Origin: an uncultured Eubacteriales bacterium
Lineage (GTDB): Bacteria; Bacillota; Clostridia; Christensenellales; Aristaeellaceae
DNA length: 64,000 nucleotides
Direction of reading: 5' to 3'
Assembly (NCBI GenBank): GCA_902765395.1
Contig: CACWZP010000001.1
Coordinates: forward strand, 1 to 64,000
Shown here: positions 37,200-63,656 of the stretch, piece after piece
Layout of the letters: the number at the start of each line of letters is the position of its first letter
Position numbering within the stretch: the first letter of the stretch is position 1
Program-made: the position numbers and the translations under genes
Notes under the pieces: model-generated
What the model was told of the DNA's origin: nothing
Databases searched by the model: none
The model's input: only the letters and a program-made list of their open reading frames with translations

Positions 37200-37721
37200 A
37201 TGAAAAGGGCGATGATCTGCCTGCTGCTGGCGGCGCTTGTGCTGATGAGCGCGGGAGTGTGCGAGGAGATCTACTACCAGCAGATCACACAGGAGGAGGC
37301 CGCGCGCATCCTGGACGGGGAGGCGGGCTTCATCCTGCTGGACGTGCGCACCGAGGAGGAGTACGACGAGGGGCACATCCCCGGGGCGGTGAACCTGCCC
37401 AACGAGGATATCGCCGCCGAAGAGCCGGAGCTGCTGCCGGACAGGGACCAGATGATCCTGGTCTACTGCCGCAGCGGGCGGCGCAGCAAGGAGGCCGCTG
37501 CGAAGCTGGCCGCCATGGGCTATACGCAGGTGCTGGAGTTCGGCGGCATCATGGACTGGACGGGCGAGGTGATCTCCACCGAGGCGGAGGCGCTCATAGA
37601 GGACGACCCCTTCGAGGCGGCGGAGTACGGCAGCCCGGAGGACTTCTACGAGGACTACGGCGACAACTTCGACGACTTCGAGGAGGCCGAGGAGTACTAC
37701 TACGAATATGGCGGCTGGTGA
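37200..37721 (+). CDS. Secreted rhodanese-domain protein with acidic tail
   Basis: A 173-residue protein with a signal peptide (MKRAMICLLLAALVLMSAG) and a rhodanese domain: FILLDVRTEEEYDEGHIPGA, and the catalytic Cys 90 in LVYCRSGRRS. Rhodaneses carry sulfur as a persulfide. The tail after about 130 is very acidic and rich in Tyr and Glu. The Cys after the signal is not a convincing lipobox. Extracytoplasmic sulfur transfer is likely. Confidence 0.87.
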   Translation: MKRAMICLLLAALVLMSAGVCEEIYYQQITQEEAARILDGEAGFILLDVRTEEEYDEGHIPGAVNLPNEDIAAEEPELLPDRDQMILVYCRSGRRSKEAAAKLAAMGYTQVLEFGGIMDWTGEVISTEAEALIEDDPFEAAEYGSPEDFYEDYGDNFDDFEEAEEYYYEYGGW

Positions 37722-37742
37722 GCCGGGGAGGGGGACGCGCTT

Positions 37743-38915
37743 ATGATCACCAATGGATTTACCTATGTGGCCGTGCTGCTGTTCATGGCGGGCGCGCTGG
37801 TGACGCTGGAGAAGACGGCCAAGGGGCCGCTTGCGAAGTTCTTCAAGTATGTGCCCTCCATGGTGCTGTGCTATCTGGTGGCGATGCTGCTTTGCACGCT
37901 GAAGGTGTGGGACCTGGGCGAGACGAAGGCGGCCTACGGGGCGCTGAAGAACAACCTGACCTACGCGATGGTGTTCGCCATGCTGCTCAGGTGTGACATC
38001 CGCAAGGTGCTGCGCCTGGGGCCGCGGATGCTGCTGGGCTTCTTTTCCGCCACGCTGACCATCATGTTGGGCTTCATCGCCGCGTTCCTCATCATGAAAC
38101 GGTTCATCGGCGGCGAGGCCTGGATGGGCCTGGGCGCGCTGTGCGGCTCGTGGATCGGCGGCAGCGGCAACATGGTGGCCGTGCAGGCGGCGCTGAACAT
38201 CTCCGAGGCCGACATGGGCTATGCGCTGGTGATCGACTCCATCGATTACTCCCTGTGGGTGATGTTCCTGCTGTGGGCCATCCAGCTGGCGCCTTCCTTC
38301 AACAAGTGGACGAAGGCGGACACCGCGAAGCTGGACGAGGTTTCCGTGAAGCTTTCCGACGAGGCAAAGCAGAACGCGAAGCCGGTGACGCTGCAGAGCC
38401 TGCTGCTGCTCATCGGCTGCGCGTTCCTGGTGAGCGCCGTGGCCACGGGCGTGGGCGCGAAGCTGTATGAGCTGACGGGCTTTTCCGACAAGGCCACCTG
38501 GACGGTGCTGTTCGTGACCGCCGTGGCGCTGGTGTGCGCGCTGACGCCGCTGGGGAAGGTGGCCGGGTCGGGCGAGGTGTCCAACCTGCTGCTCTACGCG
38601 GTGATCGCGCTGCTGGCCTCCCGGGCGAGCCTCACGGAGCTGGGCGACGCGCCGGCCTGGATCATCACCGGGTTCATCGTGCTGGCGATCCACGCGGCGC
38701 TGATGCTGGTGATCTGCAAGCTGCTGAAGCTGGACCTGTTCACCGCGGGCGTGGCCTCCCTGGCCAACATCGGCGGCACGGCCTCCGCGCCGGTGCTGGC
38801 GGGGTCCTACGCCGGCTCGCTGGTGCCCGTGGGCATCCTGATGGCGCTGATGGGCTATGTGGTGGGCACGCCCCTGGCCACGCTCTGCGCCAACATCATG
38901 AAGGCGCTGGCGTGA
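37743..38915 (+). CDS. DUF819-family membrane transporter-like protein
   Basis: A 390-residue protein with about ten helices. LGALCGSWIGGSGNMVAVQAA and SLANIGGTASAPVLAGSY are matching repeats in the two halves, characteristic of the DUF819 (YjcL-like) family, distantly related to sodium-dependent transporters. Substrate unknown. It starts 21 nt after the rhodanese gene, so a sulfur-related or anion transport role is conceivable (inference). Confidence 0.85.
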   Translation: MITNGFTYVAVLLFMAGALVTLEKTAKGPLAKFFKYVPSMVLCYLVAMLLCTLKVWDLGETKAAYGALKNNLTYAMVFAMLLRCDIRKVLRLGPRMLLGFFSATLTIMLGFIAAFLIMKRFIGGEAWMGLGALCGSWIGGSGNMVAVQAALNISEADMGYALVIDSIDYSLWVMFLLWAIQLAPSFNKWTKADTAKLDEVSVKLSDEAKQNAKPVTLQSLLLLIGCAFLVSAVATGVGAKLYELTGFSDKATWTVLFVTAVALVCALTPLGKVAGSGEVSNLLLYAVIALLASRASLTELGDAPAWIITGFIVLAIHAALMLVICKLLKLDLFTAGVASLANIGGTASAPVLAGSYAGSLVPVGILMALMGYVVGTPLATLCANIMKALA

Positions 38916-38985
38916 TGGCGCAGGACAGCCAGGGATGGATTTATGAGGCAGTGATCCCATATTGAAAAACGGGGATAAATACTTC

Positions 38986-39013
38986 TTGACAATTCCGAAT
39001 CATCTGCTATACT
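38986..39013 (+). promoter_or_regulatory. Promoter of the SAM riboswitch transcript
   Basis: A perfect TTGACA and TATACT are 16 nt apart, with TGC before the -10 box: one of the strongest promoters in the window. The riboswitch begins 9 nt after the -10 box. Confidence 0.85.
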
Positions 39014-39021
39014 GTTATCAG

Positions 39022-39105
39022 CCTATCAAGAGTGCGCGAGAGATCAAGCTCGATGACCGCACAGCAACCTGCCCGCGGGGTAAGGTGCTAACGCTTGGCG
39101 ATAGG
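39022..39105 (+). ncRNA. SAM-I (S-box) riboswitch
   Basis: P1 is formed by CCTATC (39022-39027) and GATAGG (39100-39105). Between them are the conserved S-box pieces in order: TATCAAGAG, CTCGATGACC, CAGCAACC and AAGGTGCTAA. The 3' side of P1 (GCGATAGGGTGC, 39098-39109) can instead pair with the left arm of the terminator (GCACTCATCGC, 39124-39134), the expected antiterminator. It should switch expression off when S-adenosylmethionine is abundant. Confidence 0.9.
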
Positions 39106-39121
39106 GTGCAGACAGACAAAA

Positions 39122-39156
39122 CAGCACTCATCGCAGCGATGGGTGCTGATCTTTTT
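39122..39156 (+). terminator. Riboswitch-controlled terminator
   Basis: CAGCACTCATCG and CGATGGGTGCTG form a 12-bp stem (one G-T pair) with loop CAG, followed by a T-rich tract ending in five T. Its left arm overlaps the antiterminator sequence. Confidence 0.88.
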
Positions 39157-39204
39157 CAGTGACCCTCCTCATGATGGGCAAATAAACATCAAGGAGGCAT
39201 TCCC

Positions 39205-39555
39205 ATGAACCATCGTCCCATTTCCGAACTCTTCAGGCACGAAGGCGCGCTCTACATCCACTGCGCAAATCCCGCGATGAGGGCCATGCTGGCCCGCGAT
39301 CTGACCGATCAGGGCTTCCGCTTCCGCGACGGCGCGTCCCCCGAACAGCGTGGGATCGATTCCCTGATGCGCATCCACCGGGACTACACCATCGGCTTCT
39401 GCGGCTACGTCTGCCGGGTGCAGGACAACATCGGCCGGCCGGACCAGCTGGAATACTGCAGGAAAAACAGCGAGCGCGGCGCCACGCGCATCGACTATGC
39501 CCGCTTCATCAGCGGCGGGGAGAAATACGTGCTGCGCCGGAAGAAGGCAGTCTGA
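39205..39555 (+). CDS. 116-residue uncharacterised protein under SAM-I control
   Basis: The protein begins MNHRPISELFRHEGALYIHC, has RDYTIGFCGYVCRVQDNIG in the middle and a basic end YVLRRKKAV. Four Cys and several His are present; no signal peptide or membrane segment. AAGGAGG precedes the ATG. It is the only gene behind the riboswitch before a terminator hairpin, so its expression should respond to S-adenosylmethionine. No known methionine-pathway enzyme was recognised; a role in methionine or SAM economy is inferred only from the riboswitch. Confidence 0.75.
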   Translation: MNHRPISELFRHEGALYIHCANPAMRAMLARDLTDQGFRFRDGASPEQRGIDSLMRIHRDYTIGFCGYVCRVQDNIGRPDQLEYCRKNSERGATRIDYARFISGGEKYVLRRKKAV

Positions 39556-39572
39556 CGGCGGGGCATGCAGAC

Positions 39573-39609
39573 AGAGGGCGCCGCGACAATCCCTGTCGCG
39601 GCGCCCTCC
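39573..39609. terminator. Hairpin between converging genes
   Basis: A perfect 15-bp GC-rich stem, GAGGGCGCCGCGACA and TGTCGCGGCGCCCTC, with a five-base loop. The T-tract is poor (CGTTTG), but the position suits bidirectional termination. Confidence 0.75.
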
Positions 39610-39632
39610 GTTTGTCCGCATACCGTTTCCCG

Positions 39633-40805
39633 TCACCGGGCCGCCTTCGGCCGGCGGGACTTCATCTGCGCCTTGTCCATGTACAGGTTTTTATCCGCCC
39701 GCTGCTGGCAGGCCTGGAAGGTGTCCCCGTCGTCGCCGAGCTGGCTGTAGCCCGCGCCGATGGACAGCGTATAGGGCGCGCCCCTGGACTTGCAGGTGTC
39801 CATGATCTGCCCGCGCAGGTCCCGGATCAGCGCGTCCACCTCGCCCGCGTCCGTGGGATGGACGATGTAGATGAACTCGTCTCCGCCGTACCGGGCCAGG
39901 AACAGGGGCATGTTGTGCCTGCGGATGACGGCCCGCAGGGAGTCGGCCACGATCAGCAGCGCCTTGTCGCCCTCAGCGTGGCCGTAGGTGTCGTTGATGG
40001 ACTTGAAATCGTTGATGTCGAACATGATCACGAAGGTCATTCGGCCCTCGCGGCGCATGTTGGATTTCTGCAGGGTGTAGCGCATCAGCTGCCCCCGGTT
40101 GTTCAGGCCGGTGAGCGGGTCGCTGGAGATCCGGGTCTCCATGGCGTTGATGTAGAATATCAGCATCAGTATCGCGCTGCAGAAGCAGAAGATGGGCGTC
40201 TCCGGCAGGAACAGGACCTGCAAAAGCCCCCCGGCGATGACCATCAGCGGGAACATGCCCACGAACAGGTGCTTGCGCCGCTCCAGGGGGTTTTCCTCAA
40301 TGATGGCCTTGCGCGAGGTGTAGACGACCACCGCCACGATGTACACGCAGGGCACGGCGATCTGGAACGCGTTGTAGAGCGGCTGGAGCACAAAATCCTC
40401 GCTCAACAACAGGGTCGGCTTCCACAGGTAGGTGGCGATCAGCGCGATGGTGGAGAGGTAGAAGGGGGATTGTATGGCGAAGCGGGTGCGCCTGTCGTCC
40501 CGGTTCTTCACCTGCTCCACCACCATGACATAGCGCAGCCAGGTGTAGGTGATGGCGGCCATCAGCACGTAGTTGCAGAAGGTGACGGGCAGCACCGTGA
40601 AATGGTTCTTCGGCAGCACGCCGGCGATGACCGACGCCCAGCACGCGTCGCACACGAAATAGAGCATGAACGCCACCAGGGCATGGTCATACTTGATCTG
40701 CTTCTCCTGCCGGTCCACGCTCATCAGGTCGCGAAACAGCATGATGGCGAATATGATCATGCAGACGACGCTGGCCTCGGTGTAGTAGATGAAATAACTG
40801 GACAT
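39633..40805 (-). CDS. Membrane diguanylate cyclase (GGDEF)
   Basis: A 390-residue protein with about six N-terminal helices (1-215) and a C-terminal GGDEF domain. SSDPLTGLNNRGQLMRYTLQ starts the domain, FVIMFDINDFKSINDTYGH binds GTP and metal, and the active site is ARYGGDEF (about 307-311). The inhibitory RxxD site upstream of it is absent. It makes cyclic di-GMP; the membrane part may sense an unknown signal. No EAL or PilZ gene is nearby. Confidence 0.92.
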   Translation of the reverse strand: MSSYFIYYTEASVVCMIIFAIMLFRDLMSVDRQEKQIKYDHALVAFMLYFVCDACWASVIAGVLPKNHFTVLPVTFCNYVLMAAITYTWLRYVMVVEQVKNRDDRRTRFAIQSPFYLSTIALIATYLWKPTLLLSEDFVLQPLYNAFQIAVPCVYIVAVVVYTSRKAIIEENPLERRKHLFVGMFPLMVIAGGLLQVLFLPETPIFCFCSAILMLIFYINAMETRISSDPLTGLNNRGQLMRYTLQKSNMRREGRMTFVIMFDINDFKSINDTYGHAEGDKALLIVADSLRAVIRRHNMPLFLARYGGDEFIYIVHPTDAGEVDALIRDLRGQIMDTCKSRGAPYTLSIGAGYSQLGDDGDTFQACQQRADKNLYMDKAQMKSRRPKAAR

Positions 40806-63321: not shown

Positions 63322-63398
63322 TGGCGATGCGGAAGGGGCTCGAACCCTCGACCTCCAGCGTGACAGGCTGGCATTCTAACCAACTGAACTACCGCACC
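63322..63398 (-). tRNA. tRNA-Asp (anticodon GTC)
   Basis: Acceptor arms GGTGCGG and CCGCATC pair, the anticodon loop reads CTGTCAC, discriminator G and CCA are encoded. Last gene of the leftward tRNA operon. Confidence 0.93.
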
Positions 63399-63399
63399 A

Positions 63400-63475
63400 T
63401 GGTGGGCCTTCAGGGACTTGAACCCCGGACCGATCGGTTATGAGCCGACTGCTCTAACCACTGAGCTAAAGGCCC
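63400..63475 (-). tRNA. tRNA with CAT anticodon (Met or lysidine-type Ile)
   Basis: Acceptor arms GGGCCTT and AAGGCCC, anticodon loop CTCATAA, CCA encoded. Elongator Met and Ile2 tRNAs share this anticodon and cannot be separated with confidence by eye; it is not an initiator, since the acceptor arm is fully paired. Confidence 0.88.
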
Positions 63476-63500
63476 TTGATCCCTGTGGGCTTAAATAAAA

Positions 63501-63575
63501 TGGCGACCTCTACGGGACTCGAACCCGTGTTACCGCCGTGAAAGGGCGGTGTCTTAACCGCTTGACCAAGAGGTC
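63501..63575 (-). tRNA. tRNA-Glu (anticodon TTC)
   Basis: Acceptor arms GACCTCT and AGAGGTC, anticodon loop CTTTCAC, discriminator G and CCA encoded. The body closely matches known Firmicute tRNA-Glu. Confidence 0.93.
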
Positions 63576-63579
63576 GCAG

Positions 63580-63656
63580 TGGTCGGGGTGACAGGATTCG
63601 AACCTGCGGCCCCATGCTCCCAAAGCACGTGCGCTACCAAACTGCGCCACACCCCG
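63580..63656 (-). tRNA. tRNA-Pro (anticodon TGG)
   Basis: Acceptor arms CGGGGTG and CACCCCG, anticodon loop TTTGGGA, discriminator A and CCA encoded. First gene of the tRNA operon. Confidence 0.93.

Follow-up and report, generated by a model that had tools for sequence, protein, structure and literature searches.

We analyzed a riboswitch of type SAM-I (S-box), predicted to sense S-adenosylmethionine (SAM), together with the small gene that it precedes in a 64,000-nt stretch (hereafter the window) of contig CACWZP010000001.1 from an uncultured Eubacteriales bacterium of the Aristaeellaceae. The gene encodes a member of a new protein family that is tied to a real riboswitch match, and its cassette, which is also carried by phages, occurs in the window as a solo copy within a bacterial genome. 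The reading that we favor, and that we consider probable with some reservation, is that of a self-contained, mobile, phage-associated cassette consisting of a promoter, a SAM-I aptamer without P4 stem, a terminator, a hairpin hiding the Shine-Dalgarno (SD) sequence and a small open reading frame (ORF), in which a double gate would restrict expression to conditions of low SAM. The initial annotation of this locus had described a promoter, an S-box, a terminator/antiterminator pair, a ribosome site and a single small gene. All of these elements were recovered in our analysis (Table 1), and we add to them the lack of P4 in the aptamer and the SD-sequestering hairpin 3' of the terminator.

The covariance model RF00162 matched the window (E = 2.2e-11 for this stretch) with 59.9 bits, above its gathering score of 44.4, and a search of the whole genome returned the same place. 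The aptamer contains the J1/2 motif AAGAG, the motifs GCAACC and GGTGC, the stems P1 to P3 and a pseudoknot. When motifs were sought by pattern, a 5-bp pseudoknot between the P2 loop and J3/4 was possible in all 29 distinct aptamers; in one locus (L037) it is altered on both sides (CAGAC/GTCTG). The P4 stem is absent: a single base replaces 19 model positions of the P4 region in the Rfam alignment of the window, and the 3' strand of P1, also located by pattern, starts so few bases after the pseudoknot that there is no room for P4 in any of the 29 distinct aptamers. Because of these two properties, we regard the element as a P4-less variant rather than a canonical SAM-I riboswitch. The SAM-I/IV model (RF01725) reached 36.9 bits at this site, below its cut-off of 41.1, and the site was not among the six weak matches to SAM-IV (RF00634). 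SAM-I riboswitches usually control methionine or SAM genes, and the one further SAM-I riboswitch found in this genome lies upstream of metK. Matches to RF00162 were detected in 23 of the 28 genomes of the genus. Not counting the two matches of the genome under study and the copy of the cassette in G108, there are 25 such matches, of which 22 precede metK, two run off the contig and one (L110) precedes another small protein.

The protein itself has a patchy distribution. It was found in seven of 300 genomes of the bacterial family (five after removal of two chance matches), two of 297 genomes of the order, five of 391 of the class and two of 398 of the phylum; each search included the genome under study, and ten different genomes are represented altogether. 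Within the 28 genomes of the genus, all numbered among these 300, only G000 and G108 presented a match. Scans of viral sequences placed the protein on 15 IMG/VR contigs (the first of these scans, with the window protein alone as query, gave no match), one record was obtained from a phage collection (Ruminococcus phage NatCom_28274) and the plasmid collection contained no match to the protein. In this survey of homologues, which the initial annotation had proposed, a match to RF00162 above the cut-off lies directly 5' of the gene in 26 of the 26 loci found through the protein. These loci comprise ten bacterial genomes (the window, L001, L006, L007, L008, L013, L020, L035, L037 and L038), 15 viral contigs (L014-L017, L023-L031, L043 and L044) and the named phage (L018). 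The number of independent cases of linkage is lower than 26, because several loci are near-copies of one another (L026/L027/L028, L029/L031, L015/L016, L007/L008 and L018/L024). We left out L009 and L010 (E = 3.5e-4 and 7.5e-4), which have no S-box at the cut-off and whose proteins we take, by eye, to be CtsR-like, as well as L011 (E = 0.155); L005 was merged with L001, which encodes the same protein on a contig of equal length. A phylogenetic tree of the family requires three label changes between phage and bacterial genome, with well-supported branches forcing only one, and does not settle the number of moves between the two.

Searching viral contigs with a DNA pattern of this type of aptamer retrieved 32 stretches, and all 14 of these viral loci that were checked with Rfam were identified as SAM. 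By eye, 25 of the 32 stretches lie upstream of the family, with divergent members in L050, L055 and L064; these 25 include copies of one another or of the loci found through the protein. Another six are upstream of something else: four unrelated small proteins (L054, L056, L060 and L068), whose leaders carry the SD-sequestering hairpin too, a 56-residue protein that is DpnD/PcfM-like below the Pfam cut-off (L076) and an ORF of 732 residues (L074). In L063, no ORF longer than 34 residues follows the S-box. The proteins of L054 and L068 are 52% identical to each other and form a second family of small proteins (about 138 residues) preceded, in these two viral contigs, by an S-box leader of the same type (L054:8359 and L068:8761); the L054 protein has no match in Pfam or PHROGs. 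A relative of the L060 protein (50% identity) stands behind an S-box in the genus of the window (L110, G266:C138:2712-2812), where the leader presents an SD-pairing stem, CCTCCTT/AAAGGAGG, and no evident terminator. Two contigs with S-box cassettes also bear other RNA elements, namely a DUF2800 RNA motif (L068:5466-5621) and a gut-2 RNA (L065:5503-5550).

We further analyzed the protein encoded by the cassette. The window protein belongs to no family of Pfam, NCBIfam or PHROGs, and three members of its family had no model match in PADLOC. Searches with 19 members gave no better family matches than phrog_10971 (E = 0.0039, one of 19 members, no function), PF18346 (SH3_15; E = 0.0067, three of 19) and PF07922 (E = 0.014, one of 19), all of them weak, while the divergent member of L055 matched phrog_35549 at 0.0073. 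No homology to a known enzyme or transporter of methionine, cysteine or SAM was found in Pfam or NCBIfam, and we rejected the identity of a methionine enzyme, the window protein having no family match. Only chance-level matches were obtained in a sequence search of the PDB. The structure model of the window protein is moderate (pLDDT 75.8), without PDB match among the best 50 of 71 fold matches. A phage member of 99 residues models well (pLDDT 91.6, pTM 0.82), also without PDB match among the best 50 of 101 fold matches; relative to BFVD it presents weak fold similarity to uncharacterised phage proteins such as A0A8S5SUX2 and D4N4K7 (TM of at most 0.54 among the top matches, best E = 0.012, none at E <= 0.001). 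The protein is under purifying selection: the ratio of nonsynonymous to synonymous substitution rates (dN/dS) is 0.33 between the window gene and its copy in a sister genome (86% identity) and 0.06-0.24 in five phage pairs, three of which have saturated dS.

The unit looks self-sufficient. Among the 30 leaders with enough upstream sequence, 29 present a promoter-like site with at least nine of 12 matches, mostly 4-7 bases before the leader, relative to 9% of shuffled stretches and four of 30 stretches located further upstream. In the window, the promoter is the sole such site in 38800-39700 (shuffles average 0.6). The unit holds one gene, and the next gene, on the opposite strand, encodes a GGDEF protein. 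Terminators below -8 kcal/mol are present in 29 of 31 leaders, and the predicted antiterminator duplex between the 3' strand of P1 and the segment holding the 5' arm of the terminator has an energy of -16.3, compared with -6.9 for shuffled sequences, and is below -8 in all 31. The second hairpin, which covers the SD sequence, was scored in 31 leaders, including four that precede other proteins; the mean folding z score is -3.5, with 26 leaders below -2. The metK leaders of the same genus average -0.9 (n = 23), with four below -2. The predicted openness of the SD sequence is lower than 0.3 in 27 of 31 cassette leaders and in 12 of 23 metK leaders.

The 5' arm and loop of this second hairpin are complementary to the 5' strand of the aptamer, which suggests that one aptamer could gate transcription through the 3' strand of P1 and translation through the 5' strand. 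The duplex between the 5' strand and the anti-SD arm averages -11.6 kcal/mol across 30 distinct leaders, compared with -5.15 for shuffled platforms. We then exchanged partners between leaders. Own partners paired at -10.4 and swapped partners at -9.5 for 30 leaders (0 of 5000 permutations reached the observed mean), and at -10.3 and -9.3, respectively, for 20 dissimilar leaders (9 of 5000), although these permutation figures are not clean probabilities because the leaders are related. The window covaries, with -16.4 for its own pairing and -8.6 for its arm with the 5' strands of other leaders, and one pair column shows C-G, A-U, G-U, U-A and U-G. With P1 forced to form, the predicted openness of the SD sequence fell from 0.45 to 0.10 over 30 leaders (0.43 to 0.03 in the window), and openness was higher with P1 free in 22 of them. 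Finally, the probability of pairing between 5' strand and arm exceeded 0.5 in 18 of 30 leaders (0.99 in the window) and in one of 23 metK leaders.

Table 1. Features of the cassette in the window (positions are those of the window)
Feature	Position	Strand	Remarks
Sigma-70 type promoter, TTGACA-16-TATACT	38986..39013	+	11/12 matches; ends 6 bases 5' of the Rfam start of the aptamer
SAM-I aptamer, P4-less variant, 5-bp pseudoknot CAAGC/GCTTG	39020..39107	+	RF00162, 59.9 bits
P1 5' strand and J1/2 (GCCTATCAAGAG)	39021..39032	+	Predicted partner of the anti-SD arm without SAM
P1 3' strand	39098..39109	+	Predicted antiterminator partner of the terminator 5' arm without SAM
Intrinsic terminator	39122..39156	+	Terminator-like stem 39122-39148 and T tract
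Second, SD-sequestering hairpin	39158..39201	+	3' of the terminator
5' arm and start of loop side of the second hairpin (CTCATGATGGGC)	39168..39179		Complementary to 39021-39032, 11 pairs
SD sequence AAGGAGG	39191..39197	+	
ORF, 116-residue protein	39205..39555	+	Undescribed small phage-associated family

In the mechanism that we propose, binding of SAM would keep P1 closed and let the terminator form, and in any transcript extended past the terminator the second hairpin would still block the ribosome site. Once SAM is absent, P1 would open; its 3' strand would serve as antiterminator by pairing with the terminator's 5' arm, and its 5' strand would pair with the anti-SD arm and free the ribosome site. 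The small protein would thus be produced only at low SAM, and we propose for it a role as prophage-type accessory protein in cells depleted of SAM. Control of the gene by SAM is what we predict, and we found no evidence that the product is a metabolic enzyme. The double gate is likely rather than proven, with support from the pairing energies, the swap test and the metK-leader controls. We rejected the idea that the protein acts on the second hairpin to regulate its own expression, because the hairpin also precedes the unrelated proteins of L054, L056, L060 and L068.

Apart from the relatedness of the leaders, several observations weigh against this mechanism. The z score of the second hairpin is above -2 in five of 31 leaders, and L020 lacks an SD hairpin (z = -0.79, SD 0.87 open). 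The metK leaders also average -8.4 kcal/mol for the duplex of 5' strand and anti-SD arm, and such an arm may pair accidentally with the aptamer because the SAM-I core motif AAGAG resembles an SD sequence. When P1 is forced in metK leaders, SD openness also decreases, from 0.42 to 0.30 (nine of 23 are more open with P1 free). Twelve of the 30 cassette leaders do not favor the helix of 5' strand and arm at equilibrium, and equilibrium folding disregards the order of transcription. In addition, the role proposed for the protein comes from its context. The metK value and the 12 leaders, like the clear terminator and antiterminator, would agree with an ordinary transcriptional S-box, in which only the terminator matters and the SD hairpin is incidental or a guard against translation of upstream read-through. 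We consider this explanation unlikely, since loop-side bases such as AUAGG match the 5' strand though they are not needed to pair with the SD sequence, since own partners outperform swapped ones in both the full and the reduced set, and since metK leaders seldom have the hairpin or the helix. It is also conceivable, but improbable in our view, that some other factor opens the second hairpin as an independent gate, such that the leader reads two signals. There is a precedent in the met leader of Xanthomonas campestris (SAM-IXcc), in which the anti-SD stem is reported to persist without SAM, another factor opens it and uncharged tRNA-fMet binds the anti-SD sequence (PMC7270179). The same could occur in the cassette, where the SD sequence stays locked without the 5'-strand helix in those 12 leaders, but both arm and loop are accounted for by their match to the 5' strand of the aptamer, with no further factor.

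The surroundings of the copies bear on the role of the protein. By eye, bacterial copies are mostly alone amid unrelated housekeeping-type genes. The window copy is preceded on the same strand by genes for a rhodanese-domain protein and then a DUF819 membrane protein (37200-38915); elsewhere in the window, four tRNA genes are clustered on the minus strand (63325-63656). Since L007 and L008 have relaxase- and MobC-like neighbors, and L007 also what resembles an integrase fragment, we take their surroundings to be a mobile element. Transposase-like ORFs were seen near L006 and L037. Relaxase-, MobC- and integrase-like ORFs adjoin, by eye, the cassette copies L079 and L080 (of G082 and G055, respectively), which seem to be in a mobilisable element. 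In phage NatCom_28274, the gene is oriented against its large neighbors. One phage clade shows an overlap of the cassette gene with the end of a cluster C3 gene (nine members, the one tested being a C5 DNA methylase), and cluster C5 (eight ORFs, the one tested being an N6/N4 methylase) lies nearby. A third cluster has three members (L023, L026 and L031), of which the one tested has a match to the N-terminal domain of SAM synthetase. This 285-residue protein (L031:11821-12675, minus strand; PF00438, E = 5.7e-10; phrog_1569, function unknown) is 30% identical to the host MetK over 130 residues.

These methylase and SAM-synthetase matches, with one member tested per cluster, are consistent with a protein that serves the SAM homeostasis or DNA modification of phages, raising or sparing SAM when its level drops, in phages that encode SAM-using DNA methyltransferases. 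This role has a modest chance of being correct: the methylases of the clade are on the opposite strand, no methylase was present among ten tested neighbor ORFs of L014, L015 and L017, and none was noticed by eye beside bacterial copies. A role as effector against competing phages, or as host-shutoff factor, with loss of SAM (e.g., by a phage SAM lyase) as the alarm, appears somewhat less plausible still. It would agree with the cassette's own promoter, with the orientation of the gene in NatCom_28274 and with the different small proteins driven by the same leader type, and a double lock would suit a costly product, but the three members searched in PADLOC matched no model. The initial annotation was right to place an uncharacterised family behind a SAM-I riboswitch; its further proposal of a new enzyme, regulator or transporter of bacterial methionine/SAM metabolism is probably the wrong reading, and we give it very little weight. 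Such genes are the usual targets of SAM-I riboswitches, as most matches in the genus illustrate, but the family is patchy and often phage-borne, it has no enzyme family match, viral contigs have the same leader type in front of unrelated small proteins as well, and no methionine gene was seen beside the bacterial-genome copies (by eye, no family search having been made). Least credible of all is a phage SAM lyase. The protein is a small alpha/beta phage protein linked to SAM, but no lyase appeared among the PDB sequence matches or among the best 50 fold matches of either model, and a switch that is off at high SAM has the wrong sign for an enzyme that destroys SAM.

More speculatively, and with doubts that outweigh our confidence, these cassettes might represent exchangeable SAM-depletion alarms of phages and prophages, in which a P4-less SAM-I aptamer gates expression through both strands of P1, each cassette carries a different small effector and the effector acts when infection or starvation drains SAM. 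If true, this would define a new class of metabolite-sensing phage accessory genes and a new double-gate riboswitch design, in which each strand of a single P1 would serve one gate, the terminator or the SD hairpin, to give a compact double lock. It also raises the testable question of whether phages sense the SAM level of their host, and with what response.

The cassette shares with canonical SAM-I riboswitches (RF00162) a score above gathering, the core motifs, P1 to P3, the pseudoknot and the terminator platform. It differs by the absence of P4 in 29 distinct aptamers, by the additional SD-hiding hairpin matching the 5' strand of the aptamer, by a downstream gene without known methionine role and by its carriage on phages. 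The SAM-I/IV riboswitches (RF01725) belong to the same clan and have a P4-less core, but the window scores below their cut-off. No description of phage SAM-I riboswitches was found in the open-access literature, as judged on titles and abstract openings. The small phage proteins of BFVD resemble the phage member weakly in fold, none of them at E <= 0.001. The phage SAM lyases T3 SAMase and Svi3-3 (PMC7877911) are likewise small phage proteins connected with SAM; they differ by the lack of sequence match, by their absence among the fold matches listed and by the opposite logic of regulation. Regarding the mode of control, PMC7270179 states that the SAM-I riboswitches functionally characterised before SAM-IXcc all used a terminator, and that SAM-IXcc acts mainly on translation. 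Like the cassette, SAM-IXcc has a SAM-I platform with an anti-SD stem that hides the SD sequence, but according to the same study it lacks an intrinsic terminator, regulates the met operon and has uncharged initiator tRNA as a further ligand, whereas in the cassette a terminator and an SD gate are arranged in series.
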